Source: Imbricaverruca yamaguchii
Taxonomy: Eukaryota > Arthropoda > Thecostraca > Neoverrucidae
DNA: 64,000 nt
Direction of reading: 5' to 3'
Assembly: GCA_034440575.1 (NCBI GenBank)
Contig: JAOTOL010001598.1
Span: 1,166,001-1,230,000, forward strand
Shown: piece by piece, positions 7,371 to 31,220 of the stretch
How positions within the stretch are numbered: the stretch's first letter is position 1
Layout: every line of letters begins with the position of its first letter
Translations under genes and position numbers: made by a program
Notes under the pieces: generated by a model
Database searches by the model: none
The model's input: only the letters and a program-made list of their open reading frames with translations
Told to the model about the DNA's origin: nothing

Positions 7371-7452
7371 CGGTCTGACGTCACCCGTGGAGCTGGCGGC
7401 CGCCGCCGGCCGTGGCCAGCGCTGCGTCAGGCTGGTGATGACCACCCTGCAG
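7371..7452 (+). CDS. THADA: THADA exon 3
   Basis: A short 82-nt exon after ggctgttgcag; its first base completes a TGC codon with exon 2. It ends ...VRLVMTTLQ in phase 0 at donor gtacgg. Its last 18 nt and the donor are the unit of the minisatellite that follows. Confidence 0.9.
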
Positions 7453-7713
7453 GTACGGTACCGACTGTGATGACCACCCTGCAGGTACGGTACCACTGTC
7501 ATGACCACCCTGCAGGTACGGTACCACTGTGATGACCACCCTGCAGGTACGGTACCACTGTCATGACCATCCTGCAGGTACGGTACCACTGTGATGACCA
7601 CCCTGCAGGTACGGTACCACTGTGATGACCACCCTGCAGGTACGGTACCACTGTGATGACCACCCTGCAGGTACGGTACCACTGTGATGACCACCCTGCA
7701 GGTACGGTACCGA
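7435..7713 (+). repeat. 31-bp minisatellite made from exon 3 end plus donor
   Basis: Each unit is the last 18 nt of exon 3 (GTGATGACCACCCTGCAG) plus gtacggtaccact. GT donors fall at 7453, 7485, 7516, 7547, 7578, 7609, 7640, 7671 and 7702, so the true donor has eight near-identical followers. 31 is not a multiple of 3, so downstream donors would usually shift the frame. Confidence 0.96.
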
Positions 7714-7782
7714 CTATGGGTGTTAAGTGATCAGTCCTGGCCGACACGCCTTGCATCAAGACGCTAACGAATTAGTGCACCT

Positions 7783-7963
7783 GGGGCGGGGATGGCCGAG
7801 TGGTTAAGGTGTTTGGCTCTGGGTACCAAAGGTCCCGGGTTCGACACCCGCACCGATCGGGACATTTCCCAATCCCGTGGCCCACCGGCGAAACGGTGTG
7901 GGTAGCGCCATTAGCCGTGAGTGTGCATAAAGTGCGTCGTGAGCCACCCAATAAACAGCAAAC
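7783..7963 (+). mobile_element. tRNA-derived SINE, family A
   Basis: A box tggccgagtggt, B box gggttcgacacc, then a family-specific body (cccaccggcgaaac, gccattagccgtga) and an aataaacagcaaac tail. Flanked by the 10-bp target duplication TAGTGCACCT at 7773-7782 and 7964-7973. Not a functional tRNA gene: the acceptor stem does not close. Confidence 0.93.
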
Positions 7964-8282
7964 TAGTGCACCTAACCAGCAGGCTGTGTGTTTCAAGTCG
8001 CTCCATCTCAGCTGGAATTGCAGCCTGATGTTCATAATGATGTAAGTAATTCCAAACCTTTCCAGGTATATTTAGTTCACGGAGCGTCTTCAGTAGAAAA
8101 CCTAGCCCGTGTTAGGAGTCTACTGGAGAAACTCCGTCAGCGAAATATGTCGAGAATTTTGAATGCATTATGCTATTACTAACATGCGTACCAGACAGGC
8201 ATTTCATTTGATGCCTATCATGTTGTTCATCAATTTCCTGACTTCGCGTATAAAGGCTCGCCCCACCTGTTTGTGTTTACAG

Positions 8283-8453
8283 GCGGTGCAGCCGCTGTCG
8301 CCCGTGTACGACGCGGAGGCGGTGCGGGCGGTGCGCGCGCCCATAGAGCGGCTGCTGACCCGGCCGTCGCTGCCCTGGGACCTGCGCAACAACTGCGGCA
8401 TGGCGCACGTGCTGCTCTGTCGGGCCGCCGGCGACACCGATCTGCGCGCCACG
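8283..8453 (+). CDS. THADA: THADA exon 4
   Basis: Acceptor gtttacag, donor gtgcga, phase 0 at both ends, 57 codons (AVQPLSPVYDAEAVRAV...). NNCGMAHVLLCRAAG is a typical HEAT-like helix. No junction repeat is seen at either end. Confidence 0.9.
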
Positions 8454-9100
8454 GTGCGACACAGACGGCGACACCGCCACGCACCGCTGGCGTACTGTGT
8501 GCTTTTCTTTGCGCTGGGTGCTGCCAATAGCTGCTCCGGTGTTTCTAATAATGTATCATCCTAGCTGCTAAATTAAAAAAGTGCTGGCACCATGAAATGT
8601 TCCCAACAGCTTATCCCGGTCAGTGGAAGCGGTAGAACCAGACCAGAATGTGTGGTGCTTGGGTTATGTTCAGCTAGAATGTGATGCATGATACATGATG
8701 CCCTGCAGATGTCCACTGGAGGGGGCGGCAGAGGTAAAGGTACGCCTGTATGCCCTTACCTGAGCAAGCAACGGGTATGCTTAGGAATTTAGCAGAGTTA
8801 TCGCTATTACGGAAGTACGTTCGTGTAATACTTTACATGGACGATTTCCTGAACGTGAGAGATTCAGATACCTGTACTGTGCAGACGTTCTCATGACAAG
8901 AATATCGTATGTAGATCCAGTGTAGCTCGCACCGATGTATGAAGTCTCCAGCGAGTTGTCCGGATGGCTGGAGGTGGGTCCGCGCTTCACACGTGCGCAG
9001 GCCGATGGCGTGCCGCTTGTGCGGCGGCTGCTCCGTGCGTCAGCCGCGTGAGTCCGTGGGCCGCCGCCGGTCACCGTCACGCCTCCCCTCCCTGCGGCAG

Positions 9101-9300
9101 GTGATAACGGCCGCGTTCGGCGCCGGCTGTATCGAGGGCGTGCCGCTGGTGGCCGTGTCGGGCTGGCCGCTGGAGGCGCAGCTGGCGCTGCTGGCCGGCG
9201 TGGTGCACGTGCTGCCCGCCGACCAGCTGGTGGCCGACGCCGGCGGCGCCGGCACACTCATCGGCCTGCTGCTCGGCTGGCTGCTGGAGCAGGGCATGAG
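9101..9300 (+). CDS. THADA: THADA exon 5
   Basis: Acceptor ctgcggcag, donor gtgcgt, phase 0 in and phase 2 out (AG split codon). Encodes VITAAFGAG...GLLLGWLLEQGM. A GC-rich minisatellite begins about 8 nt inside the following intron. Confidence 0.9.
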
Positions 9301-9308
9301 GTGCGTGG

Positions 9309-9655
9309 CGCGGCCTCCGGCTGTGTGGTGAGGTTGGGGGTCACTGGGGACGCGGCCTCCGGCTGTGTGGTGAGGTTGGGGGTCACTGGGGACGCGGCCC
9401 CCGGCTGTTGGGGGTCATGGAGGCCTCGGGTGGGTTGGGGGTCACTGGGGACGCGGCCCGGCTGTGGGCCTCCGGCTGTGGGCTGGGGTTGGGGGTCACT
9501 GGGGACGCGGCCCCGGCTGTGGTGAGGTTGTGGGTCATTGGGGACGCGGCCCCCGGCTGTGGGCTGTGGTTGGGGTCACTGGGGACGGGGCCTTCGGCTG
9601 TGAGCTGGGATTGGAGATAGTTGGAGACACGGCCTCCGGCTGTAGGCTGGAATTT
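9309..9655 (+). repeat. ~40-bp GC-rich minisatellite at the exon 5 donor
   Basis: Repeats of ggggtcactggggacgcg with ccggctgtg-type and gtgaggttg segments, starting about 8 nt after the donor. Several copies contain gtgagg, a potential decoy donor. Confidence 0.85.
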
Positions 9656-10039
9656 GGGTTCGTGTGGGATGCAGCCAGATATGTGGAACTGAAAATGCGA
9701 CAAGTGTGAGTTACGCGGATGGAGTGACCTGTTGAGTTGTGACCCATTTTCGTCCTGTTTTGTTGACAAGCCAAAACTAGATAGGGGACAGTGGGTAGCT
9801 TAATAAGCTGGAAATCGTGATTGATTGTGATGTTGTAGCTACCCTCGTATCGGTCAGCACTCGCCTATACTTGGAGTTATGTTAGGAGGCTGTCATTGTG
9901 TCTGGTAAATGTTCCCTGCCGGAACATTAGCGCCACCTGTTTTGCGTGCTGTCGTTGAGCCATGTAGTGAGAGGTAGCGCTAACTCCAACATCGTCCACG
10001 CGCTCTTTTAACACCCACGTATCTTTATTTTTTCCATAG

Positions 10040-10272
10040 CGTGTCAGACACGCCTGCCATGCTGGGCTTCTCCCGCGCCGTGCTGTCCGTGCTTAGCCGC
10101 ATCACGCACGCCTCTGACGGCGAGGTGGAGAACTTCGACCTGTCGGCGCTGCTGCCAGATGTCCTTGTGCAGGACCTGCTGCAGTACGTGTGGCGCTTGA
10201 TGAGCGACGATGCGCAGTCGGTCCGCAACGTCGGCACCGACGTGCTGGGGGCGCTTGTGGCGCTGTTCGCCG
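10040..10272 (+). CDS. THADA: THADA exon 6
   Basis: Acceptor ttccatag, donor gtgagt, phase 2 in and phase 1 out. YVWRLMSDDAQSVRN aligns with the human repeat YVYTHWEHPLDALRH, anchoring the register near human residue 420. Four further copies of the donor follow at 44-bp spacing. Confidence 0.92.
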
Positions 10273-10480
10273 GTGAGTCGCCGCTGCTATGGAAATGTCG
10301 CCGTGGTTACTCGCCGGTGAGTCGCCGCTGCCAGTTAAATGTCGCCGTGGTTACTCGCCGGTGAGTCGCTGCTGCTAGTGAAATGTCGCCGTGATTACTT
10401 GCCTGTGAGTCGCCACTGCTAGTGAAATGTCGCCGCGGTCACTCGCCGGTGAGACGCCGCTCCGGTTGAGTGTCGCCATG
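10265..10480 (+). repeat. 44-bp array carrying the exon 6 donor
   Basis: Donor-like GT at 10273 (true), 10317, 10361, 10405 and 10449, each in a tcgccggtgag or close context. The last 6 nt of exon 6 belong to the unit. Confidence 0.94.
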
Positions 10481-10568
10481 GTTACCAATCGTGTTTCACT
10501 GTCAACTGTGCAACTGTGCCTCTGCATCATTAAACAGAGGAGCCTTGTGTTCTTTTGCGACACGTTCG

Positions 10569-10728
10569 AGGACCGCGGTAGCTCAGTCAGTAGGGTGTCG
10601 GACTCGTGACCGTAAGATCGTGGGTTCGCATCCCGCTGCCGGCGGTATTACCAAAGTCCGCCAGCGACCGATCGGCGTGAGAGGTTTGCGATGTCCCATG
10701 ACCTAGCGGTTGAATGCGTCGTAAATGA
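10569..10728 (+). mobile_element. tRNA-derived SINE, family C
   Basis: Head gcggtagctcagtcagtagg and B box gggttcgcatccc resemble a tRNA; the body ends gtcgtaaatgaaccc. A family B SINE is inserted at its 3' end. Confidence 0.8.
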
Positions 10729-10738
10729 ACCCAAGGTT

Positions 10739-10889
10739 GGGGACGCGTAGTCTAGGGGTAAGCTGCCCGTCTCAATCGAAAGGTTGTGGGTTCGAGTCTC
10801 ACGTGCCGCCCGCGACCAATTGGCGTGAGAGACTGGCGACGCTGCATGACTCTACGGTCGATGTGTCGTAAAACCAATAACCAACCAGG
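10739..10889 (+). mobile_element. tRNA-derived SINE, family B
   Basis: Head gtagtctaggggtaag, B box gggttcgagtctc, body gcgaccaattggcgtgagag, tail aaaaccaataaccaacc. The 10-bp target duplication ACCCAAGGTT lies at 10729-10738 and 10890-10899. Confidence 0.93.
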
Positions 10890-11548
10890 ACCCAAGGTTC
10901 TTCTACACGTTCGACTGCCTGACGGCCTGGCGTCGCCAGTCGCATAACGTTGGCTGCAGGTGGACTTGGTGATGCCGCAGGCTGTCGGACTTGAACTTGC
11001 GATCTAGCGATCAGGAGTAGCAGCCTGCCTACGTAGCCACCGTGACCCATTGCTGCATCATTAGCGGAGCTGAAAAACGAGAATGAGTAGGTACCGGCTG
11101 TGGAGACAATTGGCTGAAGTCAACCCATCAGATAGGAAAGAACAGCGTCAGGTCGTATATGCTATCCCGACAGGCATCCCTTATGAACCAACATTAAATC
11201 CCACCTATGTGACGTCCTTTTCAAGGTCTTCCTATTTTATAACCTCCCAAGTTCTCCCCATATTCCAGCCTCCCTAGGTTCTTTTGATATATCGCCGTAC
11301 GGAAGGTCACTGCCGCCTTCCAAGATATGTCAGATATTGACCCTTCCAGCTCTCCCCTATTTTGAATGTACGTATCCTCCGTAGGCCGACTTCCTAAGGT
11401 CCCTAATGTGCTCGTGCGTGTCTGCGCTTCTCCTGTATGTCACTATTGCCAGGTCCTTCTTCCATTTTGGTGGCGACCCATGGTCTCTCCTGCCCGCTAT
11501 CTTCCCACGTCGCTGGTACCCGCTGACGTGCCTCTGCGTCGGCGGCAG

Positions 11549-11739
11549 CCAGCCCGGAGGGGGCGTTCCTGACGGAGCTGACCAGCACGGTGCTGGCGCT
11601 GCCGCTGCACCTGCGGCGGCGCTGCCGGGCGCTGCGCTGCCTGCTGCCGGCGCTGGGCGTGGCGCGCCTGCTGGCCGCCTGTCCGCAGCTGCCGCACCAG
11701 CTGGTCACGGCGCTGCGCGACCCGGCCGTCGTCACACAC
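11549..11739 (+). CDS. THADA: THADA exon 7
   Basis: Acceptor gcggcag, donor gtgagt, phase 1 in and phase 0 out. FLTELTSTVLALPLHLRRRC corresponds to the human FFVELTESLLRLEWHIKGKY region. The acceptor has no clear pyrimidine tract. Confidence 0.92.
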
Positions 11740-12494
11740 GTGAGTCACGCTGCTGGGGGCGGGGAGGACGGCATATTAGGCGCCGCACGCGATAGGTGCG
11801 CTTGGCTGTTGACACATGCTAGGGGATGAAAAACGACTTTGTGATGGATTTGTGTGGATGGATGGAACATGGTCCTCAGGGAAACCATCATTTTGTTCTT
11901 GCTGCGATGTTGGATGATGCTGCTTAGTGATAAAGTGCTCCGGGGTTATTTGAAATTAAGAGTGAAAACTGGTGGGTTTTTCAATCCGGACTTTTGTTAC
12001 AGTAATTGCCACTGGATAGTTGGAAACGGAAACTATGGTCGTATCTTATTCCCGGGTTTATTTTTGTCACATTCGAATTCGATTATCGATGAATTCCAAA
12101 TTGAAATTGGGCACCAAGAGTTGGAGTGCGCAAGGAGGACTTCCTGATTCCTGTAGTACTACTGGCTCCCTGCACGTGGCCGCCATGATGGGCCAGCACC
12201 ACACATCATCTGCTGACCTGACGTACGCCGTTAGTGCGCCTCCACCTGTCATTACGGGCTTTATGTCGTTCTGATACGTGTGGGAGAGTGGAGGACAAGG
12301 CGACACCAGCAATCGTGCACGTCATTGGCATGCAATTTTTATTGTGGGAAAAACAAATGTATTTTGTCCCCCTCCCACAATATGGATGTTACTCGGATTG
12401 CTGTCACGTTATCACCCCTAACCTTCCACGGTATCCATGGTACACAGGCTGTGCCATGTCGTGTCACTTGCACCTTGTCGTGATAACGACTGCT

Positions 12495-13075
12495 GACTGT
12501 CCCGGTACCCGTGGCACACAGGCGGTGGACCTCTACTGTGTGCTGGTGACCACCGCTGACTGTGTCCCGTGGCACACAGGCGGTGGACCTCTACTGTGTG
12601 CTGGTGACCACCGCTGACTGTGTCCCGGTACCCGTGGCACACAGGCGGTGGACCTCTACTGTGTGCTGGTGACCACCGCTGACTGTGTCCGGGTACCCGT
12701 GGCACACAGGCGGTGGACCTCTACTGTGTGCTGGTGACCACCGCTGACTGTGTCCCGTGGCACACAGGCGGTACCTCCGCTGTACCACAGACTTCCCCCG
12801 GTGGACCTCTACTGTGTTGGTGACCACCGCTGACTGTGTCCCGGTACCCGCGGCACACAGCCGGTGGACCTCTACTGTGTGCTGGTGACCACCGCTGACT
12901 GTGTCCCGGTACCCGCGGCACACAGGCGGTGGACCTCTACTGTGTGCTGGTGACCACCGCTGACTGTGCCGGTACCCGTGGCACACAGGCGGTGGACCTC
13001 TACTGTGTGCTGGTGACCACCGCTGACTGTGTCCCGCGGCACACAGGCGGTGGACCTCTACTGTGTGCTGGTGAC
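12495..13075 (+). repeat. ~60-bp array carrying the exon 8 acceptor
   Basis: Units contain ggcacacag followed by the first ~29 nt of exon 8 (GCGGTGGACCTCTACTGTG...). AG-bounded exon starts occur at 12522, 12580, 12645, 12710, 12768, 12861, 12926, 12989 and the true 13047; one further copy has lost its AG. Each copy also contains ctggtgacc, a weak donor. Confidence 0.95.
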
Positions 13076-13397
13076 GGAGCACGCGCGCGTCGCCGAGCGC
13101 GCCGACTGGCTGCGCGCCTGGGTGGACCCGCTGTTCGGCTCGGACGCGCTGCCGGCCGCCGCGCTGGCGCAGATCACCAAGCGCGTGACGCAGCTGGCGC
13201 CCGGCTCGGTGACGTACGTGGCGGCGCGGATCGCGGCGCTGCCGCGTCTGCCGCGCCACCTGCAGCTGGTGCTGCTGACCGCCGTGCAGGCGGCGCACCG
13301 CCAGGGCGCGCTCGACACCGACCGCGTCGACGACAGCTGGCGCGGCGTGCTGCCCATGGAGCGGCTGCGCGCCGCGCTCCGACACAAGGACGACGAG
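13047..13397 (+). CDS. THADA: THADA exon 8
   Basis: Acceptor ggcacacag, donor gtgggt, phase 0 at both ends, 117 codons (AVDLYCVLVTEHARVAERAD...). WLRAWVDPLF and the following helices match the human WHETWVSPLLF block. About 29 nt of the exon start plus its acceptor are repeated upstream in a ~60-bp array. Confidence 0.93.
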
Positions 13398-13569
13398 GTG
13401 GGTGGGGGGAGCGCCGGGGAGGGGGCTGCGGCGCGGTCGCGTCCGTCTGGTGCTTTTACTTGTCGGGAGAGTTCGAACGGTACGGGTGAAAAGCTCGACT
13501 TCAAGTGAATGATGCCTGAAGAGGGCTCACTCTCCAGCGAACTACTGCAAACTGGTGTTCGGTCGAACC

Positions 13570-13675
13570 GTGAACATACCGGCCGTGTACTCCAGCGTAC
13601 CGGCCGCTACTCCAGCGTACCGGCCCTGTACTCCGGCGTACCTCTCGTGTACTCCAGCGTGCCTCCCGTATTGCC
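13570..13675 (+). repeat. ~20-bp minisatellite, intron 8
   Basis: About five degenerate copies of tactccagcgtaccggcc. The remaining intron to 14137 looks unique. Confidence 0.7.
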
Positions 13676-14145
13676 GTGTTGGCTATCATGTGGCCGCAAC
13701 AGTGTTGGCTGCTGATGTCGGTGCAGAATACTAACGGGAAACCACGGTTTGTTGTGGAGATGTCGGGTGCTAGTGTCAACGGCATTGAGTCAGCCGTCTA
13801 GTGAATCTATTGAGTCGACTGTCACACGTTTACGGACTTGCCAGTGCCTAAACATTCACTGCTCACGTTGGACAGTCTAGCAAGTCACAATGCGACATGT
13901 CTATATTCTACCTTATGTCTGTTCTCGACGGGTGTCGCGTGGGACTCCAAGCGTATGGTGCGCTCGTAGGCATAATTAATTGATCAGTGAAGTAGTTGTA
14001 TCATTCCCCTTCCACTTGAATTCTCGAAAGTTGGATGCTAAATCTGTTCACCTCTTGGCCACTTACACCGCGAGAGATATCCCTTTGTGTGTTATATCTG
14101 TGCGTGCCTGATGCATAAGCGGATACCGTTAAGCACTAGCGTCAG

Positions 14146-14304
14146 ATCAGTTATCGGTTATTGATTTTTGGCGACACGTCGACCGTTCAGTCGTGTAGCG
14201 CGCCAATCTCTCACGCCGATTGGTCGCGGGCGAAGATGAGCGACAGGTGAGACTCGAACTCACAATCTTTCGATTGTTAGCTGGCCCCTAGACTACTCGT
14301 CCCA
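14146..14304 (-). mobile_element. family B SINE, minus orientation
   Basis: Reverse complement of the family B element (gagactcgaactcac is the B box on the other strand). Flanked by TAGCGTCAG at 14137-14145 and 14305-14313. Confidence 0.9.
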
Positions 14305-14386
14305 TAGCGTCAGTTCGTTAGCTGTATATGGCATTATATCCGCGCTATTCCATTTCGTCTCTTCATGTGCTGATCCATCTCGCCAG

Positions 14387-14542
14387 GTTCGCATCGCCGC
14401 GCTCACGGTGCTCTCGGACAGTCAGAAGACGTCCGAGCTGTTCGACCCGGTGGAGCTGCGGCTGATCGTGCGCTTCGTGGCCGCCAATCTGACCAATCAG
14501 TCGCCGGCATTCCGCCAGCAGCTGATGGCCGTCATGAAAAAG
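14387..14542 (+). CDS. THADA: THADA exon 9
   Basis: Acceptor ctcgccag, donor gtgggc, phase 0 at both ends. NLTNQSPAFRQQLMAVMKK aligns well with human NLNSQSPGVRQQICSLLKK, one of the best conserved stretches of the N-terminal half. Confidence 0.95.
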
Positions 14543-14867
14543 GTGGGCGTGGCGTCAGGTGACGCCGTGGAGGCGGGGTGGAGTGGCGTGGTTCTGTTCG
14601 CCTCCCCCCCCCCGAGAAGGTGTTTTCGGCGCCGACAACGAAGCAGTGTAGTGGTTGTGGTCAAGCCGCCGTCAGCATTCACAGTACCCATGGCGAATGC
14701 CCGTGAATGGGCTTATACAGACCAACCAATTGTATTACACCATACGATCCTTGCGTATGTTTAAGTTCGTATGCTGCAATCGCCTGCCCTTGCCCTGCGC
14801 AGCCCTTGCACTGGCCTGATGACGACGTCTCCATAGATCACCTTCAGCCGCCGTCTGAAGCCAGTCC

Positions 14868-16168
14868 CGGGTGTGCCAGTGATCTGGAGCCAGTCCCGGG
14901 TGTGCCAGTGATCTGGAGCCAGTCCCGGGTGTGCCAGTGATCTGGAGCCAGTCCTGGGTGTGCCAGTGATCTGGAGCCAGTCCTGGGTGTGCCAGTGATC
15001 TGGAGCCAGTCCCGGGTGTGCCAGTGATCTGGAGCCAGTCCTGGGTGTGCCAGTGATCTGGAGCCAGTCCTGGGTGTGCCAGTGATCTGGAGCCAGTCCC
15101 GGGTGTGCCAGTGATCTGGAGCCAGTCCCGGGTGTGCCAGTGATCTGGAGCCAGTCCTGGGTGTGCCAGTGATCTGGAGCCAGTCCTGGGTGTGCCAGTG
15201 ATCTGGAGCCAGTCCTGGGTGTGCCAGTGATCTGGAGCCAGTCCTGGGTGTACCAGTGATCTGGAGCCAGTCCCGGTGTGCCAGTGATCTGGAGCCAGTC
15301 CCGGGTGTGCCAGTGAGCTGGAGCCAGTCCCGGGTGTGCCAGTGATCTTGAGCCAGTCCCGGGTGTGCCAGTGATCTGGAGCCAGTCCTGGGTGTGCCAG
15401 TGATCTAGAGCCAGTCCTGGGTGTGCCAGTGATCTGGAGCCAGTCCTGGGTGTGCCAGGACCGGTGCCATATCTGGCGTCCAGTGATCTGGAGCCAGTCC
15501 GGGTGTGCCAGTGATCTGGAGCCAGTCCCGGGTGTGCCAGTGATCTGGAGCCAGTCCCGGGTGTGCCAGTGATCTGGAGCCAGTCCCGGGTGTGCCAGTG
15601 ATCTGGAGCCAGTCCCGGGTGTGCCAGTGATCTGGAGCCAGTCCCGGGTGTGCCAGTGATCTGGAGCCAGTCCCGGGTGTGCCAGTGATCTGGAGCCAGT
15701 CCTGGGTGTGCCAGTGATCTGGAGCCAGTCCCGGTGTGCCAGTGATTGGAGCCCGGTGTGCCAGTGATCTGGAGCCAGTCCCGGGTGTGCCAGTGATCTG
15801 GAGCCAGTCCCGGGTGTGCCAGTGATCTGGAGCCAGTCCCGGGTGTGCCAGTGATCTGGAGCCAGTCCTGGGTGTGCCAGTGATCTGGAGCCAGTCCCGG
15901 GTGTGCCAGTGATCTGGAGCCAGTCCCGGTGTGCCAGTGATCTGGAGCCAGTCCCGGGTGTGCCAGTGATCTGGAGCCAGTCCCGGGTGTGCCAGTGATC
16001 TGGAGCCAGTCCCGGGTGTGCCAGTGATCTGGAGCCAGTCCCGGGTGTGCCAGTGATCTGGAGCCAGTCCCGGGTGTGCCAGTGATCTGGAGCCAGTCCC
16101 GGGTGTGCCAGTGATCTGGAGCCAGTCCCGGTGTGCCAGTGATCTGGAGCCAGTCCCGGGTGTGCCAG
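14868..16168 (+). repeat. 29-bp minisatellite, about 45 copies, intron 9
   Basis: Units gtgccagtgatctggagcca plus gtcccgggt with very low divergence (cc/ct variants, few 1-bp losses). It fills the intron up to about 20 nt before the exon 10 acceptor, so branch point and tract probably lie in repeat-derived sequence. It creates a spurious 484-codon minus frame. Confidence 0.97.
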
Positions 16169-16189
16169 TGACGCCGGTGCGGCCGGCAG

Positions 16190-16434
16190 ATCCTGGTCCG
16201 GCTGGTGGACGGCACCAGCGCCCTGCTGCGCCGGCTGGACGAGGCCGAGCGGCGGTCGGCCGCGCTGGACGACCGGCTGGCGCCGCTGGAGCGGCTGCGC
16301 GCCTACGAGACCGGCCTGCGCCGCCTGTTCGAGCTGCCGTTCCGGGGTCTGTTCCCGGGCGCCAACTTCCCGCGCCGGTGCACCAGTCTGAAGCTGCTCG
16401 CCATGATCGAGGACTTCTTCGGCGACTCGTCCAG
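16190..16434 (+). CDS. THADA: THADA exon 10
   Basis: Acceptor ggccggcag, donor gtggga, phase 0 in and phase 2 out. LFELPFRGLFPGANFPRRC corresponds to human LFEALFPGSSYSTRF. The 29-bp intron-9 array ends about 20 nt before the acceptor. Confidence 0.94.
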
Positions 16435-16934
16435 GTGGGAACCCGAAGCGCTTGCGTTGGCTGGCGGGTATAGTTGTGCACGCGTATTGGTTGGTGTTGC
16501 CTGTTATTCACGGAAGCGATGGTCCAGCCATTCAAGGGGGTAACGAACGCTGGATTCTCGCCGATGGATGGTCGAGCTATTTAGAGGGTAGTGTACGCTG
16601 GGCTCTCGCCGGTAATTATCAGTCTGAGGATAACTGGAGGGCCAAATTGGAGCAACTCAGTGTAAAGTTATACCTATTATCTGATCCATCCTCATGTTTT
16701 GATAGCTAAATAAGAAGGTTGACTGTATTTGGTGATGTTCGTTATGCTATCACAGATACACTCTAAGCGATAACTGACACTGGTGCTGCCTTCAGTGGAG
16801 TTTAGCGAATGTTTTCGGGGTATTCTGGCCCAAGTGACCCATGCTGACTTTTTTGTGTGCTGTTTTTTTTTGTTAGTGACAATTTTTGTGCCACAAAGTT
16901 TATTTTGTTACTTCATGTTTTGCAATGCGTGTGA

Positions 16935-18995: not shown

Positions 18996-19007
18996 GCCTG
19001 CCGGCAG

Positions 19008-20590: not shown

Positions 20591-20599
20591 CGCCGGCAG

Positions 20600-21061: not shown

Positions 21062-21066
21062 GTGAG

Positions 21067-21530: not shown

Positions 21531-21670
21531 GGACACGTCGACCGTTGAGTCATGTAGCCTCGCTAGCCTCTCACGCCGATTGGCCGCTGGCGAAGAGTAG
21601 CGACAGGTGAGACTCGAGCCCACAACCTTTCGATTGTGGGACAGACACCTTGCCCCTAGACTACTCGCCT
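21531..21670 (-). mobile_element. family B SINE, minus, next to exon 14
   Basis: Reverse-complement family B body (ctcacgccgattggccgc, cttgcccctagactactcg). Its boundary lies only about 22 nt from the exon 14 acceptor, so the element may provide branch-point sequence. I could not find a clear target duplication. Confidence 0.85.
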
Positions 21671-21691
21671 GACGCCGTGACCGTGCGGCAG

Positions 21692-21962
21692 GTGCACGGC
21701 CGACTGGCGCGGCCTGGGCGGCCGCCTGATCTCGCTGTGTCAGCGCGCCTCGGCCGCCGTGCTGCCGGTGGTGAGCAGCTCGTCGCCAGAGGGCCACCTG
21801 CCGATGGACCACAGCGCGGTGGCCGTGCGCCGGCTGGGCGCCACCCTGCGGCGCGCGCTGGCCGTCGGCCGGCCGCACCAGGAGGGCCGGGAGGACCGGC
21901 AGGACACGTCCGGCGTCACCGCCCAGATGCTGCTCATCTGCTGCTGGCGGACCATGAAGGAG
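21692..21962 (+). CDS. THADA: THADA exon 14 (start of DUF2428 core)
   Basis: Acceptor gtgcggcag, donor gtgggt, phase 2 in and phase 0 out, 271 nt. It carries SSSSPEGHLPMD and DTSGVTAQMLLICCWRTMKE, both hallmarks of THADA. The linker between them is much shorter than in human. A minus-strand SINE ends about 22 nt upstream of the acceptor, and the 3' 75 nt with the donor is duplicated 166 bp downstream. Confidence 0.96.
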
Positions 21963-22165
21963 GTGGGTCGGCGCGGCACCGTCTGCGTGTGTGTCAGAGA
22001 GGGACCAGGAGGAGGGCCGGGAGGGCCGGGAGGGCCGGGAGGACCAGGAGGGCCGGGAGGACCGGGAGGACACGTCCGGCGTCACCGCCCAGATGCTGCT
22101 CATCTGCTGCTGGCGGACCATGAAGGAGGTGGGTCGGCGCGGCACCGTCTGCTGTGTGTGTGTGA
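21882..22165 (+). repeat. duplication of exon 14 3' end and donor
   Basis: The 75 exonic nt ending at 21962, with donor and ~40 intronic nt, recur 166 bp downstream (donor gt at 22129). The copies are separated by a short gggagggcc array. The second copy would be read in a different frame if the first donor were skipped. Confidence 0.94.
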
Positions 22166-22487
22166 GAGAGAGGGGGTGGCATTCCACGATAGGTCGACTA
22201 GCACTGGCCACCTTCATTTCCCAGATTTTTTAGCAAAATTGATGTGCAAGGTTATCGTATGCCCTGAATCCACCGGTGCAAATTTTACTTCGATTAGGTC
22301 AACGGTTCGGGAGTCATAGCCTCGGGCATTTAAGGAAGGTCACGCTGCGAGGCGTACTTCGCAGTACGCCTGGCACGCAGACGTACTGCGAAGGTCTGAA
22401 TAGTGAAGTAGAATTGTGTGGTGAGCCTGGTTGTGATTTATTTTTTAAGCAAGAAAGGTTATGCTCGTTGTAAGATCTTGAATTAAG

Positions 22488-22649
22488 GGGACGAGTAGTC
22501 TAGGGGCAAGTTGCTCGCCTCACAATCGAAAGGTTGTGGGTTCGAGTCTCACCTGTCGCTACTCTTCGCCCGCGACCAATCGGTGTGAGAGATTGGCGAC
22601 GCTGCATGACTCGACGGTCGATGTGTCGTAAAACCAATAACCAATTAAC
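22488..22649 (+). mobile_element. family B SINE
   Basis: Full family B element (ctaggggcaag, gggttcgagtctc, ccaataaccaatt). Target duplication ATCTTGAATTAAG at 22475-22487 and 22650-22662, the longest perfect one of this family here. Confidence 0.93.
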
Positions 22650-22802
22650 ATCTTGAATTAAGCCGTTGACGTCCGTCCGTAAGCCCTCGCTGGCTGGTTT
22701 TGGGAGCAATCATGGAGCAGTCTGTTGCTGTATTCCCCATTGCACCCGTTGACCGCTATGTACGACGACAGAGTGGTGATCCCAAGGTCTGCCGCTCCAC
22801 AG

Positions 22803-23047
22803 GTCTGTCTGTTGCTGGGTGACCTCTCGCAGAAGATGCCGGTGGTGGCTCCGATGGCCGGGGGCGCCGCACGTGACCACGTGACTCCGGACCGGGACCA
22901 GACCACGACCCCAGACCGTCACTTGACCCCTGACGTACTCTTGGAGATCGGTCGGCACTTCATCAGTCTTCTGGCGGAGACAAAACACCGCGGCGCCTTC
23001 GAGCAGGCGTACGTCGGCTTCAGTCGCGTCTGCCAGACCCTCTGGAA
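22803..23047 (+). CDS. THADA: THADA exon 15
   Basis: Acceptor gctccacag, donor gtgagt, phase 0 in and phase 2 out. It contains [13 protein letters not shown] and [18 protein letters not shown], the strongest DUF2428 signature (human QSRHRGAFELAYTGF). GC3 is lower than in neighbouring exons. Confidence 0.97.
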
Positions 23048-24400
23048 GTGAGTCAGCTTTTTGCAACGTCTTAGGTGGTGACCCGCTGAGACTGCTACTG
23101 CATTTGCTACCGACGGTGGATCTGCTCCGACCCCACTGTCACGCCCAGGGTTGGAATAATAGGCCGTTCGTGGATTTTTCACATCCAGAACATTGTCCTC
23201 TTCAGCAAATTGTATGTTCTCATTTGGATCATTTGGAAGCTGAATGATGGTGCTGTTTGACGTGGAATGCCGCATAATGAATTGATCCAGCTTCATTGGA
23301 AGGTGCACACTGAGATTCTGATGTCACAGATTTAAATATAAAATGTCTCCTCCATATTTGATAACTACAACAATTTTCCTCTCCACAACCAGAATTACAA
23401 AGCACAAATCCAACTGGAAACCCGACACTATTGCTACTGCTGTGCTACTCCCAACATCACTTATGCACGATATTACCGCTACACGACACTGCTGTTGCAG
23501 ACCGTGTTGTTTCTGGCATCATGTCTATCCACTATTATTTATTAACCATTTTGCTATTATGTGGTGGCCTGCACGACGCTGCTGTTGCACAATAGTTTAC
23601 TACTGCTGCACTGCCATTTTAGCGGTAATCCTGTGATATTGCTGCTATGAATGTTTTTGCTCTTGACATTACTTCTCAGTGCGATTGCTGTCGTAGATTT
23701 CACAATCACCAGCCCCATCACTAGCTCCATCACCAGCTTCCTCACCAGGTCTCTCACCAGCCCCCTCTCGTGACCTGCGACCTCGGGAGAGAGGGATGTG
23801 GAGGCAGTTGTATGGTTGTATGCATTCTTGTCGAACACTGACCTTGTAGTCTGCGCGCCCTTAAGCCCAAATAATCAATCAATTGTCGAACACTGCAGCA
23901 GGAGCGCACACTAGCGACAAGCAGTACACTGTGCCCAGACCACGATAACAGTGTAGGAAAGGAAGTTTTCACAACATGTAGAAATTATGAGTAGAGCTGG
24001 AGGAATATAGTAAGTTTCTATGTGTGATATCGCATAATTCCGTTTGTGAAGGCAGTTGTCATACGCAACAATTGCAGTATATTCCCTGGTCGCTTTTTCC
24101 TGTTTCTTTATTGGTGTAATTTCCCGTTCGCTTTTCTCCAATACTCTTCTTCTATTGCGGAATGGTTGGAGTGGACATTACTGGTGAATGTATATGACTG
24201 TTTTATATCGTAATGGCAATATTTATATAGTCACCCCTATATAAATACTGCCAATACTAAATGTTGACGTTAAATTATCTTAATTACACCGATGTTCTCG
24301 TGTCGATAAATCAACCTAATTGCACTTATTTTGTATTGTAGTTCATCAGCTGTCTTCCCAAGTGACACTGCTCCCCTGAATTGACTTTGGACAATTCCAG
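23048..24400. other. intron 15, unique AT-rich
   Basis: Lower GC than surroundings, no array, no gene recognised. A SINE tail-like piece near 23845-23884. Confidence 0.5.
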
Positions 24401-24530
24401 ATCACCGCTGCCCGAGCTGAACTGCATGCCGAGCCGCTGGCTGGACGATGTCATAGCTGACATTCGAGGAGAGGGACGACAGACGCTGTGCTCCACCCGC
24501 CGAAGCGCCGGCCTTCCATTCCTGATGATG
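24401..24530 (+). CDS. THADA: THADA exon 16
   Basis: Acceptor acaattccag, donor gtatgc, phase 2 in and phase 0 out. LCSTRRSAGLPFLMM matches human LCATRRSAGIPFYIQ, the end of the DUF2428 core. Flanking introns are AT-rich with no large array. Confidence 0.97.
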
Positions 24531-25018
24531 GTATGCAATCTCAGTTGAGACGCTTGCAGGTCTGAGTGTCTTGGATTACTGAGCAGTTGGCTAGGTAGCT
24601 TCCCGATTTAATTCGTGTTGGCTTGTTTATTGGACGGCGAGGTAAAGAAAGTTTACAAGAAGTTGGAGTTCAATATAAAAAGGACATAAGCCTAAAGGTG
24701 AGTGCGACTTCAGTTAAGATCATGCTTGTGTCTGGGACTAAGATTCTTGGAAATGTATTGTGCCAGATTGAGCAAGATAATTGTCGGAAGTGAACATTGA
24801 GACCAAGAGTTATATTCTGAAGAGGATTCGTCACATTCTGAATGGAAACATCTGTTATGTATCTTGGGGTGATATTTCGACTCTTATCCTCGTGTTCGGT
24901 TCACTGCGCACTGAGTCCGTGCAGTATATGATCAGGCATATAATGCCACAGGACCGCCTAGTGCCAAAACTGTAAAATGCCGACATCGTCAAGTAAAGCA
25001 CTGCTGACGTGGTTTCAG

Positions 25019-25240
25019 GCCTTGCTGACATCAGAGCCATCTGTGATCGGTTCGCCGTACTTCAGTCACGCCATGAGCTCGCTGCTGGCGGCGGCGTCCG
25101 AGGGCGGTGAGACGGCCGTGCATGCCATGAACGTGCTGCGCGCCCTGTTTCGCGACTCGAGACTGGGCGAGAGCGTCTGCTCGCACGTCAGCGCCGGCAT
25201 CAAGACGGCCGTCTGCGGCTTCCGCGCCGACACGTGCACG
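25019..25240 (+). CDS. THADA: THADA exon 17
   Basis: Acceptor tggtttcag, donor gtgagg, phase 0 at both ends. ALLTSEPS and HAMNVLRALFRDSRLGE match human ALLASEP and HALNILRALFRDTRLGE. Two more in-frame copies of the donor lie 69 and 138 nt downstream, and the sequence between them stays open. Confidence 0.97.
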
Positions 25241-25446
25241 GTGAGGGAGCCTGGCCGGTCTGGTGACGAGACCCCCACTGGTCCGTGCACTTCCAGTGCC
25301 GCCAGCACGGTGAGGGAGCCAGGCCGGTCCGGTGACGAGACCCTCACTGGTCCGTGCACTTCCAGTGCCGCCAGCACGGTGAGGGAGCCAGGCCGGTCTG
25401 GTGACGAGACCCCCACTGGTCCGTCCACTTCCAGCGCCGTCAGCCG
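25235..25446 (+). repeat. 69-bp array carrying the exon 17 donor
   Basis: Donor gtgaggg at 25241, 25310 and 25379, each after gcacg. 69 is divisible by 3 and there is no stop in the exon frame until after the array, so use of the second or third donor would add 23 or 46 residues (VREPGRSGDET...). Confidence 0.95.
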
Positions 25447-25808
25447 TATCGGAGATGTAGTAGGAGTGTTTGCTTGAGAACCGTTCGAAAGGATTGTTGA
25501 CGTCGTGTTCTCCGTGTGAAATTCCGAGATAATCATTAGACGTAATTGGAAATGATCGGTACACAATTAACGTGTTTTGCCATGTTTAGTAAACACTTAG
25601 CTTCAGTAAGCGTTTCACAAAACTACTGTGAACACCCATCGGAGTACCTCATCGCATTCCGCCATCATATTTGAGAGCTGCGAATAAACTGCGTCAGGGG
25701 ATCCTACGCTGCCGCGTCAGTGGCCCCTGAGGCTGACGCTCGAGACCCAGCCGTGTGTGAGACCGGCGCCTCGCCGACTCGACCGCTGAGCGCCCCGCTG
25801 TCCGGCAG

Positions 25809-26051
25809 GAGCGCAACTCTGCGGCGCTGCTGTTCGCGGCGCTGGTGACGCGCGTGTTCGGCGTGCAGCGCAGTCGCGACACCCTGGCCAAGAAGAACTG
25901 CATGACGGGCCGCATGTTCTTCCTGCGCTACCCGGACCTGTACGCGTTCCTGTTGGCCGAGCTGGGCGGCGCGCGCGACCCGTTCGCCGTGCTGCTGCTG
26001 CTGGCCCGGCTCTACCCGTCGCCGGTCGACGGCAGCGACGCGCAGTACCGG
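25809..26051 (+). CDS. THADA: THADA exon 18
   Basis: Acceptor ctgtccggcag, donor gtgggt, phase 0 at both ends. RNSAALLFAALVTRVFG, MTGRMFFLRYPDLYAFL and LYPSPVDG all match human THADA closely. Confidence 0.97.
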
Positions 26052-26059
26052 GTGGGTGA

Positions 26060-26250
26060 GCTGGTGGTACTGTGTCGACGGCTGAGGTGGGCTCGCACTT
26101 GGGCGGGTGGGCTGGGTGCCGTGTCGACGGCAGGGGGACTTCCGGGTGGGTGGGTGGTGTGTGTCGACGGCTGCAGGTGGGCTCTTGGATGGTGCGCCGT
26201 GTTGATGGTGTCGACGGCGGCGGGGGGCTTCGGTTGGTGCGGGTGACGCC
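26060..26250 (+). repeat. degenerate array after the exon 18 donor
   Basis: Three or four ~60-75-bp units around tgtcgacggc and ggtgggctc. It begins about 10 nt into the intron. Confidence 0.7.
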
Positions 26251-26670
26251 GCTCAGGTTGCGACGGAGGCGGCGCTGAATGACGGTTGGTTTTGTTTCAG
26301 TGAGTTACAGGGTTTTTATTTACAAACAGTACGCTCCTGATTTTAGCCTTGTGGATCTCGTGGTGTGAGTTCGCATCGTTAAAATATCGATATCAGCATC
26401 CACGATTATGCCAGAGCGTCATTCAGTATACCGGTGTAGCAAAGGCGTCATACACTGGTGGTGCTATGCCGATTGTGGAAGGTCGTGCTCATTGCCCCAT
26501 GCCTTCAGTGTCTGCCGGAAACGTTGCTCCACAACACTGGCTCTGCCACAGTGGTCTTGATTCAAGATCTGAGGCGTCGCAGTGCCCATCTGTGTCATTT
26601 ATTGAGCCATCCATCACATGGTATATGGTAAAAGTCACTTCGATTAACACAACCCGTCTCCGCCGGGCAG

Positions 26671-26862
26671 CTGAACGCGTTTCTGCCGGCACTGCGCGCC
26701 GCCGCCGCCTCCATCGTGCTGCAGGCGCGCGTGCTGGCGGCGCGTGCCATCTGCTCCCTGCTGCCCTACTCCGGCTACCCGGAGGCGGCGCTGGCACTGC
26801 TGGAGGACGTGCAGAGGGACGGCGTCCGCGACCAGAACCTGCTGCACGGCCGGCTGCTGCAG
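26671..26862 (+). CDS. THADA: THADA exon 19
   Basis: Acceptor ctccgccgggcag, donor gtgggt, phase 0 at both ends, 64 codons. Ends QNLLHGRLLQ, equivalent to human QNHIHGTLLQ. A ~97-bp repeat starts at the donor. Confidence 0.94.
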
Positions 26863-27050
26863 GTGGGTGCTGCGCGAGGTGGCCGCTCTGGCGATGGGGA
26901 GCTTGTGGAAGGTGGTGCGGTGCCTGGGGTGGGGAGACCTTTCGGTGGTGGGTGGGGTGCTGCGCGAGGTGCCCGCTCTGGCGACGAGGGAGCTGGTGGA
27001 AGGTGGTGCGGTGCCTGGGGCGGCGAGGCCATTCGGTGGAGGGTGTGTTG
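26863..27050 (+). repeat. ~97-bp duplication starting at the exon 19 donor
   Basis: gtgggtgctgcgcgaggtg...ggaaggtggtgcggtgcctg is repeated once, with a second gtggggtgctgcgcgag at about 26955. Confidence 0.85.
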
Positions 27051-27626
27051 TATGGGATGCCTGTAGGCCGTACTTGCGGCTCACGAGGTGTGTTGGTTAT
27101 AAATTTGTCCCCTCCTGCCTCTCGGGAATAACCACCATGACTAAAAAGGATCAATAGGAACGCTATTAATACCTTGGTTTTGTTTTGGTGCTAGTGAGGA
27201 TCCTGCTTGTTTTTTTATTGGAGGCATACTTGTCCTTGATTCTGAGTGTTCATATCATTACTGAGAAATGTCTCATTGCTGGGCATATGAACATTTCCGT
27301 GGTTCGGATGGCCTAACTGGTATGTAGAAGGAAGACGTTTACCAGCACACCAGCATACCACAACCAAACTATTAATGGCCCCGATACAAAAGCTAGTGTT
27401 GAATAGGACAGAGTTGACGACTGCTGGCGCCATAATCATGGCGTCACGTGTGCATATTTGTTGTGGGTTGCTAGCATGCCACTGTGTTCATATCTGGTCC
27501 GGGCGTATGCTGTGGCCTCATACGTCCCCGTAACGCATGGTGTGCGCCCTCGGGGTTTGGGCGCGTCTGTAAACCGCGACAGCCCCACCACACCGTCCGC
27601 CTCACCGACGCCGTGCGGGCCAACAG

Positions 27627-28430
27627 GTGCTGTACATGCTGCGCCACTGCGTGCGCGAGGCGTCCGCCTACACGCCGTCGGACCTGCTGCGCTGGCAGCC
27701 GGTGGTGGCCGGCTGCCGACCGCTGGTCGCCCTCCTCTCCGACAACCCGTGTCCGGTGACGGCGGCGGCCGCGTGCGACGCGCTGGCGGCGGCGGCGCGG
27801 CTGGGCGGCCTGCTGTCGGCGCCGCCGCCGCCGCCGCCGCTGGCCGCCGCCGCCGCGCGGCTGGCGACCGCGCCGCCGGCGGCGCTGTACGGCGCCGAGT
27901 CGGTGCAGGTGGCGGCCGTGTCGCTGCTGTGGACGCTCGGCGCCGAGGCGGACGTGGACGTGCGCCGGCTGGCGTCCTGCGACGCGCTGCAGCGCCACCT
28001 GCAGCTGCTGCAGGAGCGGCTGGACGCTGCTGGCGGCGGCAGCAGTGCCGGTGCGGCGACGGAGCCGCCGGCGGACGGCGTGCCGGCCGAGTGTGACGCC
28101 GGCCCCACCAGCGGCGGCGCGGTCAGGCACGCGCCGGACGACGGCGACCTGCCCGACACGCCGGCCGCCCTGCTGGACGTGCTGCGGCAGCAGGACGTGC
28201 CGGAGCCGTGTCTGGCGGCCGCGCTGGCCGTGCTGCGGCGGCGGCGGCTGGCCGCCGGCTGGCCGCCGCTGGTGCGCCTCACGGTGCGCCGCATGGCCGG
28301 CCACCAGGTGGCGGCAGAGTCGCCGGCGGCCGCCGCCGTCCGACGCGGTGCCGCCGCGCACGAGCGGGTGCGCGCCGAGCTGCTCCACCTGGCCGTGGCC
28401 GTCATGGACGAGATGGACGAGTCGACTGAG
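27627..28430 (+). CDS. THADA: THADA exon 20
   Basis: The largest exon, 268 codons, phase 0 at both ends (acceptor gccaacag, donor gtgagt). It starts VLYMLRHC and carries Pro/Ala runs near its residues 65-90 and an acidic linker around 130-175, then LAAGWPPLVRLTVRRMAG and a helical end. Sequence similarity to human is weak here, but order and length fit the C-terminal HEAT region. Confidence 0.88.
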
Positions 28431-28569
28431 GTGAGTGCGTGGGGCGTGCGGCGCGGCTGGGCGGTGTGATTTGTGGGCAGATGCTGCTGTCAGCCGGCTG
28501 ATTCGGACCGTATCTTACTGACTCCGAAGGAAATATTTTATTACAACAATATGGAAACCCCTCGCGAGG

Positions 28570-28612
28570 AGGGGGGGGGGGGGCTTAACCCGGAAAAAAA
28601 AAAAAAAAAAAG
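28570..28612 (+). repeat. G and A homopolymer runs
   Basis: A run of about 14 G, then ttaaccc and about 19 A. Possibly a degraded retroposon tail or a low-quality assembly spot. The rest of intron 20 (28431-29400) holds nothing I recognise. Confidence 0.6.
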
Positions 28613-29403
28613 CCTGAAGTATACTGCATCTATACCGACTCCATAGTAGGCGATGTTTCTCTCAGGTCCGGCATCGTTGACCTGTGATTAGGAACAAAAA
28701 TCAAGATTGTTCTTATGCTATGTTGGCTTGCCAATGACGTTTTCTTTGTGTCTATTTTGCATAGTTGCGAAGCGGGTTTTCAATCCGATTCTGACGCGAC
28801 CTGACCTACCTTGTGCTGATCCTGTTTTAATATGATGAATATAAATCCATTGATTTGTGCTATTTATTGAGGAACAATGCCGAAGAAAAACAAGCTCTAC
28901 CTTTTTAAAACTATTTCCAAAGTTTTATGTCAGTGTCTGTATGCTGACCTAATATCACTTACGTCTTTTTCATAATCGGCCAAAATACAATTGTAGGGAA
29001 TGTTTCAAGTTTTTCATGACATAGCTTTCTCATGATGCTTTGCGTTTTATCATAGCGACGTAGTTCGGTATGCAGCCTTCAAGACCCCTGCCACACTCTC
29101 CCACTCGATCATCGGTGATTGACATCGCCATCATTACGTGCCTGTATAGTAACGTTCAGTCTTGACCGGGACTATGATATATGCGCGTGGCACGTTTTTG
29201 CTGGCCAGACTTCAAGTCGTAAATGATGATGCAACTGTTGAGGGGACGCTTATGAACTTCGATTTGCCCTCTGCATGTACAATTCCATCCTGACCACGTC
29301 CCTGTCTGTCGCGATGTCCCCGTACCCCACCCCTTCCACTCGTCCACCGGTACCGACCCTGGCACGTGCCTGTGATCTGACCGGTGCATCCGCCGGTCGA
29401 CAG

Positions 29404-29539
29404 GATCGCTCCGCCGTACTGGACGCCTGGTGCCACCTGGTGTCGCTGGCAGCCAACGTGGACGGCACCGAGCTGGTGCGCGAGGCCGCGTGTCGTGCGA
29501 CGGGCGCCGCTCTGAGCTGGCCTCCGGGACGACTGACTG
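29404..29539 (+). CDS. THADA: THADA exon 21
   Basis: Acceptor ccggtcgacag, donor gtgagg, phase 0 in and phase 1 out. AWCHLVSLAANVDGTELVRE resembles human QWVQLVILSCEDHLPTESRL. The exon end and donor seed a ~400-bp donor-bearing array. Confidence 0.86.
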
Positions 29540-29945
29540 GTGAGGGGCGTGACGACTGACGGGTGATGGGCGGCCGCCGGGACGACTGACGGGTGAGGGG
29601 TAGGCCCCGGGACGGCTGACTGGTGAGGGGCGTGACGACTGACTGGTGAGTGGGCGGACGACTGACGGGTGATGGGCGGGTGAGGGGGGCCGCCGGGACG
29701 GCTGACGGGTGAGGGCGGGACGGCTGACGGCGGGACGGCTGACGGGTGAGGGGTGGGCCGCCGGGACGGCTGACTGGTGAGGGGCGTGACGACTGACGGG
29801 TGAGGGGTGGGCCGCCGACGGGGTGAGGGGGCCGCCGGGACGGCTGACGGGTGAGGGGTGGGCCGCCGGGACGACTGACGGGTGGGGTCGGCCGCCGGGA
29901 CGGCTGACGGGTGAGAGGCCGCCGCTCTGAGCTCGTGAGGCACTG
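29520..29945 (+). repeat. array carrying the exon 21 donor
   Basis: About thirteen degenerate ~25-35-bp copies of gggacgactgacgggtgagg, each preserving the exon end plus gtgag/gtgat. The last copy (about 29918-29940) reaches further into exon sequence (gccgctctgagct). Confidence 0.94.
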
Positions 29946-30356
29946 GTGGGCCGCCCTGTACTGGCACCTCGGAACGGGTCATGGATGCGGCGATGCGTTG
30001 GGTCGGCCTTCTGAACGCTGCTTGTTTCGAGTGGGCGACGTGGCGCGAAATGAGGCGTTACGTCCCCCGCAGATATATTGACCAACTTCTGTACTCACTA
30101 ATTGTCAATGTGACTATAATAAATGCGTGGCAAATATTTCAGACGGCATAAGTAAATCCCAGCATTTGTTACTTGTGCATGGTATAACGTGGTTTGTGTT
30201 CTCTCGTGTGACCTAACTGCTCGCAGCTTCACTCGCAGGTAATTTGCTGCTGACGCTGGATCCTCGCCACTTGCCACCAACTCCTTCGTGACGTGTCCCT
30301 TCACTTCAGTTCAATGAGCTGTGCACATGATACCCTGACGACGAGATCTCCCACAG

Positions 30357-30495
30357 TGGCACAGGAGGTGGCCATGTGGAAGAACCTGATGACGCTGTTG
30401 GTGGACGACGAAGCACACATTCGGAATGGCGCCGCCGAGATTGTCGACTCTCTGCCATACAGCAGTAGCGAACCAGACCCCCCGGATGAGGACAG
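30357..30495 (+). CDS. THADA: THADA exon 22
   Basis: Acceptor gatctcccacag is chosen because it alone restores phase 1. Donor gtcagt, phase 2 out. AMWKNLMTLLVDDEAHIRN aligns with human ALWKCVLTLLQSEEQAVRD. The last ~25 nt and donor recur 71 bp downstream. Confidence 0.92.
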
Positions 30496-30625
30496 GTCAG
30501 TTCAGTTATGCTGTGTGGTAGCGAAACAGACCCACGAGAAGAGGAACCAGACCCGCTGGAGGACAGGTAGGCTATGTTCGGCTGTGTGGTAGCGAACTAG
30601 ACCCTCCGGAAGAGGATTACATTAT
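30470..30625 (+). repeat. 71-bp duplication of the exon 22 donor
   Basis: The exon end GAACCAGACC...GAGGACAG with donor gtcagt at 30496 is repeated with donor gtaggc at 30567. A third, degraded copy lies at about 30590-30622. Confidence 0.92.
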
Positions 30626-30769
30626 CACTGTGGGTGGGGTCAGATTCACCGTGCGGTCACAAGTCCGACCAGTATGGGACGGCATCACTTGGATTATTTG
30701 TGTGATGTCGTAGTGTTAGCAAACACACGCCCGGCAACAATCCTGGCTTCGTTCATCATGCGGAGTGTA

Positions 30770-31220
30770 GTGGCGTTGTCCGGCACCTCCAATGTATATG
30801 CGTCAGACCGTGCCGTCAGCTGCCTCCGAGGTGTTGCCCGGCACTTATATGACGTAGAGACGACCCGTGCCGCCAGCTTGGCCTCCGAGTGGCGTTCGGC
30901 ACCTCCCATGTATATGACGTAGCAGGCAACTGACCCGTGCCACCTTGTTTCTACAGCAGCTGACTAGTGGCGGTGCCCGGCACCTCCGATGTGTGTGGCG
31001 TAACAGACACAGCTGACCCGTGCCGCCAGCTGCCCGGTACCTCCGATGTGTGTGGCGTCACAGACACAGCTGACCCGTGCCGCCAGCTGCCTGGCACCTC
31101 CGATGTGTGTGACGTGCCACAACGACCCGTGCCCCCAGCTGGACCGCCAAGATGTGTGACGTAACAGACACAGCTGACCCGTGCCGCCAGCTGGACGGCC
31201 GAGTGGCGGTGCCCGGTACA
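30770..31220 (+). repeat. ~57-bp array carrying the exon 23 acceptor
   Basis: acccgtgccgccag/CTG units with exon-like tggcggtgcccgg in some copies. AG-bounded starts at about 30820, 30877, 30961, 31030, 31087, 31139 and the true 31191. None of the six upstream offsets is a multiple of 3. Confidence 0.93.

Follow-up and report, generated by a model that had tools for sequence, protein, structure and literature searches.

Why do tandem repeats within one gene lie so often at the edges of its exons? This question is raised by a stretch of 64,000 nucleotides from Imbricaverruca yamaguchii (contig JAOTOL010001598.1; hereafter the window), which contains a gene identified from its domains as a THADA/TRM732 homologue. 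A preliminary description (PD) of this DNA had reported, in about nine introns of one gene, minisatellites whose unit contains an exon-intron boundary. In this gene our analysis found 18 intronic arrays with a length of 100 bp or more. Nine of them span a splice junction, five adjoin one (within 12 bp) and four lie farther off, which is more at the junctions than chance placement gives.

Arrays at the splice junctions

Arrays were defined as clusters of duplicated 24-mers (19/24 identity within 200 bp) that are at least 100 bp long and mainly intronic. The set of 18 omits clusters below 100 bp and those of which less than 40% is intronic, for example the exonic one in exon 15. Exons with the prefix PD carry the number used in the PD; PD exon n is exon n+2 in our own numbering, owing to two upstream exons. 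The gene and its 14 junction arrays are as follows.

443..34450, + strand: predicted THADA/TRM732 homologue; 26 exons found within the window; the stop codon ends at 34450
7429..7716, + strand: 31-bp array, 9 copies of exon end and 5' splice site, at the donor of PD exon 3 (7452/7453)
9302..9661, + strand: 42-bp array starting at the donor of PD exon 5 (9300/9301), junction not clearly copied
10259..10486, + strand: 44-bp array, 5 copies of exon end and 5' splice site, at the donor of PD exon 6 (10272/10273)
12426..13080, + strand: array of units near 65 bp, with 3' splice site and exon start copied 10 times, at the acceptor of PD exon 8 (13046/13047)
14848..16177, + strand: 29-bp array, 46 copies, stopping 12 bp before the acceptor of PD exon 10, junction not copied
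17609..17920, + strand: 83-bp array, 4 copies of 3' splice site and exon start, at the acceptor of PD exon 11 (17859/17860)
18692..18997, + strand: 43-bp array stopping 10 bp before the acceptor of PD exon 12, junction not clearly copied
21061..21321, + strand: 21/42-bp array starting at the donor of PD exon 13 (21061/21062), junction not clearly copied
21813..22172, + strand: 166-bp duplication, 2 junction copies with about 150 bp of exon and the 5' splice site, at the donor of PD exon 14 (21962/21963)
25228..25446, + strand: 69-bp array, 3 copies of the 5' splice site, at the donor of PD exon 17 (25240/25241)
26860..27050, + strand: 91-bp duplication starting 3 bp before the donor of PD exon 19 (26862/26863)
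29514..29924, + strand: irregular array with most units 23-37 bp long and exon end and 5' splice site copied 13 times, at the donor of PD exon 21 (29539/29540)
30461..30618, + strand: 71-bp repeat, 2 copies of exon end and 5' splice site, at the donor of PD exon 22 (30495/30496)
30854..31206, + strand: 57-bp array, 5 copies of 3' splice site and exon start, at the acceptor of PD exon 23 (corrected to 31190/31191)

The spanned junctions are six donors and three acceptors, or nine donors and five acceptors when the abutting arrays are included. All nine junction-spanning repeats named in the PD are present, at the donors of PD exons 3, 6, 14, 17, 21 and 22 and at the acceptors of PD exons 8, 11 and 23. 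They occupy eight introns and not about nine, because donor 22 and acceptor 23 border one shared intron. The stated unit range of 31 to 166 bp describes the dominant units well and fails for the array at the donor of PD exon 21. The cases at PD exons 14 and 22 have only two junction copies each; a 9-bp array is nested inside the former, and the latter is absent from the Tandem Repeats Finder (TRF) list. The five abutting arrays (donors of PD exons 5, 13 and 19; acceptors of PD exons 10 and 12) are additional to those named in the PD; each has one end no more than 12 bp from a junction and contains no clear junction copies.

The nine spanning arrays carry from 13 to 150 exon bases. The PD had proposed a process that starts at the splice junction. 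A concentration at junctions is supported, in excess of chance placement and also when GC content is matched. A start at the junction is not supported in the form stated: arrays include anything from no exon sequence to about 150 bp of it, which makes the hot zone the exon edge with no fixed breakpoint. The units are unrelated. Only one of 153 array pairs was similar, and both of its members, which are among the four distant arrays, lie in the interior of the same intron. Because of this, the 14 junction arrays look independent of one another in sequence. A single mobile satellite spreading through the introns, which the PD had also argued against, was ruled out by the same comparison.

Placement, base composition and downstream DNA

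Duplicated 24-mers (at least 19/24 within 1.5 kb) make up 17% of the first 34.8 kb, compared with 0.05-0.07% in two Markov-shuffled copies. In the null model each array was slid along the intron that contains it and could extend into the exon by at most one unit. Spanning arrays numbered 9 of 18 against 2.6 expected (P = 5e-5, 2e-4 and 3e-4 in three sliding runs), and arrays spanning a junction or within 20 bp of one numbered 14 of 18 against 4.1 expected, with none of 20,000 slidings reaching 14; these P values are inflated by selection, which tells against taking them at face value, as they come from a single gene that was flagged for showing the pattern. With other length minima the spanning excess had P from 5e-5 to 0.003. 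For example, a minimum of 24 bp gave 26 arrays: 3.58 would be expected to span a junction and nine did (P = 0.003), and 5.49 would be expected to touch one and 14 did. The excess within 20 bp had P of at most 0.0002 in all 15 threshold settings (13-15 of 16-22 arrays), and the same settings gave 6-9 spanning arrays against 2.8-3.9 expected, as counts and not as P values. Only one array ended 20-100 bp from a junction (two in 3 of the 15 settings).

The strongest rival explanation is that minisatellites are born wherever DNA is GC-rich, that selection purges the exonic ones and that those at exon edges survive, with no process specific to junctions. We consider it unlikely. GC content is 72% in exons and 64% in arrays, and introns have 58-66% within 60 bp of exons and 46-52% beyond 200 bp, a real confounder that stands against a junction-specific origin. 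The lowest-GC exons 1 and 2 (46% and 59%) have no junction arrays, the exon share varies widely between arrays, as random seeding across an edge would give, and exonic clusters exist: the one at 20591-20944 reaches 100 bp or more, and smaller ones lie in exons 10, 22 and 26. The cluster at 20591-20944 is a 30-bp in-frame repeat in coding exon 15 (PD exon 13) that encodes an acidic stretch rich in Ala, Thr and Ser. However, the junction effect persists at matched GC. In the GC band 0.55-0.75, junctions had 13 arrays to 17 array-free 60-bp windows and other positions had 2 to 80 (odds ratio 31, P = 2.6e-7); two further bands gave odds ratios of 19 (P = 1e-4) and 13 (P = 5e-4). Of the 18 arrays, the three bands contain 15, 11 and 12. 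The deviance of a logistic fit on GC fell from 117.6 to 94.7 once the junction was included, and that of a fit on the junction fell just from 96.4 to 94.7 once GC was included. Only 1-2 arrays lie in the flank at 20-100 bp, itself fairly GC-rich, whereas the edge has 13-15, and exon 24 (own numbering), with the third-lowest GC (59%), bears a donor array. GC also does not predict which junctions carry arrays. Raised GC near exons accounts for at most part of the enrichment.

The DNA downstream of the gene (34451-64000) provides a second background. Its 29.5 kb contain 21 arrays that reach 100 bp or more, the largest being 2.9 kb long with a 66-bp unit (55141-58035), and BLAST found no downstream array similar to the intronic ones. 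The rate is 1.18 arrays per kb of array-free sequence, compared with 0.19 per kb in intron interiors (4 arrays in 21.4 kb). At the downstream rate 3.5-5.9 junction arrays would be expected in zones of 60-100 bp, against 14 seen (P = 2e-5 to 0.003). Ten open reading frames between 35.6 and 62.4 kb had no Pfam match above the cut-off and gave no second gene to serve as a control. These rates also bear on the tolerance suggested in the PD, if it is taken as the sole explanation: duplication would be uniform, and duplicates at junctions would survive since a duplicate site still splices. The reading frame, described below, does show that intact copies, though many, do not keep the exon-proximal site from serving. 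Intron interiors, however, should tolerate repeats equally or more and have only the four arrays noted, an excess at junctions that tolerance alone fails to explain. This explanation is already disfavoured, and we regard it as very improbable.

Several observations weigh against a special role of junctions in the birth of arrays. First, 24-mers centred on junctions are duplicated at 8 of 50 junctions (16%), compared with 18.3% in intron interiors and 8.0% in exon interiors. Junctions are special in where arrays begin and end, not in per-base coverage. Secondly, the enrichment over the downstream background is only 2.4- to 4-fold, and arrays are about six times scarcer in intron interiors than downstream of the gene, for which a bias in seeding alone is insufficient. 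Third, array-bearing and array-free junctions are alike in exon-side GC (P = 0.35), intron-side GC (P = 0.21) and intron length (P = 0.44), and the G-skew at donors is equal with and without arrays (0.251 and 0.258). G-skew after donors was accordingly ruled out as a predictor of arrays. No local cause was identified, because GC, intron length and donor G-skew fail to separate the junctions. Acceptor-side skew, given as bare values that were partly measured inside the arrays, was 0.032 at five acceptors with arrays and -0.130 at 20 without.

Splice-site copies, reading frame and gene identity

The copied splice sites are largely intact. All 34 donor copies in six arrays have GT and all 19 acceptor copies in three arrays have AG, authentic sites included, and the splice scores of the copies are mostly close to that of the authentic site. 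Copies were chosen by likeness to the authentic site, which biases these counts toward kept GT and AG and takes from their weight. The donor of PD exon 19 was omitted from the GT count; beyond its authentic site there are two weak matches, one of them without GT.

The reading frame fits the exon-proximal copy. Use of an alternative site led to a premature stop for 41 of the 43 sites tested, the farthest copy of the PD exon 8 acceptor being omitted from the test. Up to 13 similar donors stand in series, and the tested frame permits only the first; the open frame requires no additional intron. Only in the 69-bp array at the donor of PD exon 17 do the alternative donors stay open. There, 25241-25378 is open in the frame of the exon, and two alternative donors would add 23 or 46 residues as 23-residue repeats. 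In addition, the protein was aligned with ten animal relatives and examined for gaps in the five residues before and the five after the exon-proximal junction. At four of eight introns, namely introns 5, 9, 16 and 19 in our numbering (the donor of PD exon 3, the acceptor of PD exon 8 and the donors of PD exons 14 and 17), the query and at least nine of the ten relatives were gap-free. The other four of the eight introns have gaps within five residues of the junction, so that the alignment is undecided there, a further point on the opposing side. The frame, together with the alignment at four of eight introns, favours the exon-proximal splice copy, and we infer that the cell ignores the decoy sites.

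A functional or evolutionary role for the copied sites, feeding alternative splicing, intron sliding or new introns, has been proposed for amphioxus globin genes (PMC3087553) and reported for a potato gene (PMC4974935). The kept GT and AG of the counted copies and the two open donors of PD exon 17 are what this role would lead one to expect. The premature stops from 41 of 43 sites are not, and at least nine of ten relatives have no insertion at the four clearly aligned junctions. We consider it improbable that the arrays are intermediates of this kind.

The identity of the gene was judged from its predicted product. Joining the 26 exons on the + strand gives an open spliced frame of 1969 codons ending at 34450; the gene may start upstream of the window. 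Matches to TPR_Trm732 (1.6e-23), DUF2428 (4.6e-67) and TPR_Trm732_C (5.7e-36) were found in Pfam, and the DUF2428 and Trm732 TPR domains pass the Pfam cut-off of 27 with 226.5, 83.9 and 124.2 bits. The sole match of the C-terminal half among PDB sequences was THADA (8y2o, E = 1.3e-79). By these domains and this match the gene is a THADA/TRM732 homologue. Exon positions were picked by hand along the PD's list and afterwards verified by frame and alignment. The 24 exons of the PD are correct apart from one start, and two in-frame exons with AG/GT borders were added upstream (443-552 and 977-1083). The start at 31222 for PD exon 23 was rejected, as it breaks the frame; a start at 31191 restores it and places the junction within a repeat unit. 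This start aligns with the solved THADA without a gap, in a low-scoring segment (19 bits), and none of the ten relatives aligns gap-free at this junction, so alignment support here is weak.

Relatives were taken from 120 listed among 367 above the threshold, 55 for the tree and ten for the alignment. In the tree with 55 animal THADA proteins the query falls in a clade of insects and crustaceans that excludes chelicerates and myriapods (support 0.999). Support for any finer position within Pancrustacea is low (0.43 at the next node). By this protein tree the host animal is not a lancelet, and the gene falls inside Pancrustacea.

It could also be supposed that repeats were misassembled or falsely expanded beside exons, and an array of like kind in BflGb6 was indeed misassembled in a draft genome (PMC3087553). 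The 26-exon frame is intact, however, unrelated arrays would need independent misplacement at 14 junctions, and the copies within most spanning arrays differ from one another. An assembly artefact is barely credible.

Other features were noted in the window. Box-B-like motifs lie in repeated tRNA-like sequences at 7838, 10789, 21337, 22539, 33258 and 33817 (six exact, all on the + strand), and reverse copies are apparent by eye near 14250 and 21600. We take these sequences to be probably short interspersed elements (SINEs) of two families. The window had no Rfam match at the gathering score, and no tRNA was called.

Favoured explanation and known systems

The explanation that we favour, and hold at about even confidence, is that tandem duplications are born preferentially at exon edges, expand toward the intron and are tolerated through exon definition. 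Each array would be a minisatellite of its own that began as a short tandem duplication of about 20-170 bp. Seeding would be commoner at the exon edge than elsewhere in the intron, and would most likely accompany repair or slippage at the border of GC-rich exon and AT-richer intron in transcribed DNA. Further copies would come from slippage or unequal exchange and are proposed to accumulate on the intron side because the protein fixes the exon side. The sites in spanning copies appear usable, and splicing would pick the exon-proximal one, presumably by exon definition; the array would therefore be nearly neutral. The seeding bias and its cause, the mechanism of expansion and the choice made in splicing are all inferred.

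A broader claim is that junctions are general hot spots of minisatellite birth throughout the genome, through an exon-edge lesion linked to transcription or splicing, that a large share of genes carry ignored decoy arrays and that the pattern arose independently in lancelets. We think this rather doubtful. If it is true genome-wide, short tandem duplications would be born non-randomly, favouring exon edges. They would offer intron sliding and intron gain a natural source of duplicated splice sites and would amount to a natural experiment in splice-site choice, and mirages, the junction minisatellites of lancelets, would extend to arthropods. The pattern offers a handle on the birthplaces of short repeats and on how splicing ignores decoys.

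Three known systems can be compared. Intron gain by tandem duplication has been described for the potato RdRp gene (PMC4974935) and for near intron pairs in Drosophila (PMC2891723). In these cases, as in ours, a short stretch is duplicated in tandem across or close to a splice site. In them, however, the copy becomes a new intron, whereas the arrays here sit within existing introns. Human genes in segmental duplications have variable internal tandem repeats at exon-intron boundaries (PMC2812944), and are like the present gene in bearing minisatellites there. The human repeats change transcripts and are often exonic; here, by contrast, use of 41 of the 43 alternative sites would disrupt the frame.

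The amphioxus precedents mentioned in the PD do exist. Junction minisatellites in amphioxus globin genes were named "mirages," with Adh3 cited (PMC3087553), and PGBD5 was added as an amphioxus case, with troponin C cited (PMC3902484). The Adh case goes back, by citation, to Canestro et al. 2002. Mirages have units of 10-160 bp and keep many AG and GT copies, and splicing is reported to be undisturbed (PMC3087553, PMC3902484). Among the literature matches listed there was no report of arthropod mirages, a weak negative as subscription papers were thinly covered. The arrays described here are like mirages in two respects: their units include exon end with 5' splice site or 3' splice site with exon start, and both 5' and 3' boundaries are affected (six donors and three acceptors spanned). 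Each locus also has its own unit, a criterion in our own wording and not one given in the cited portions of PMC3087553 and PMC3902484. They differ in that the host is a pancrustacean and not a cephalochordate, the sole group named for mirages there, and in that nine spanning and five abutting arrays occur in one gene, known here from genomic sequence alone. By this comparison the THADA arrays appear to match amphioxus mirages, in another phylum and more densely than in the amphioxus cases compared.

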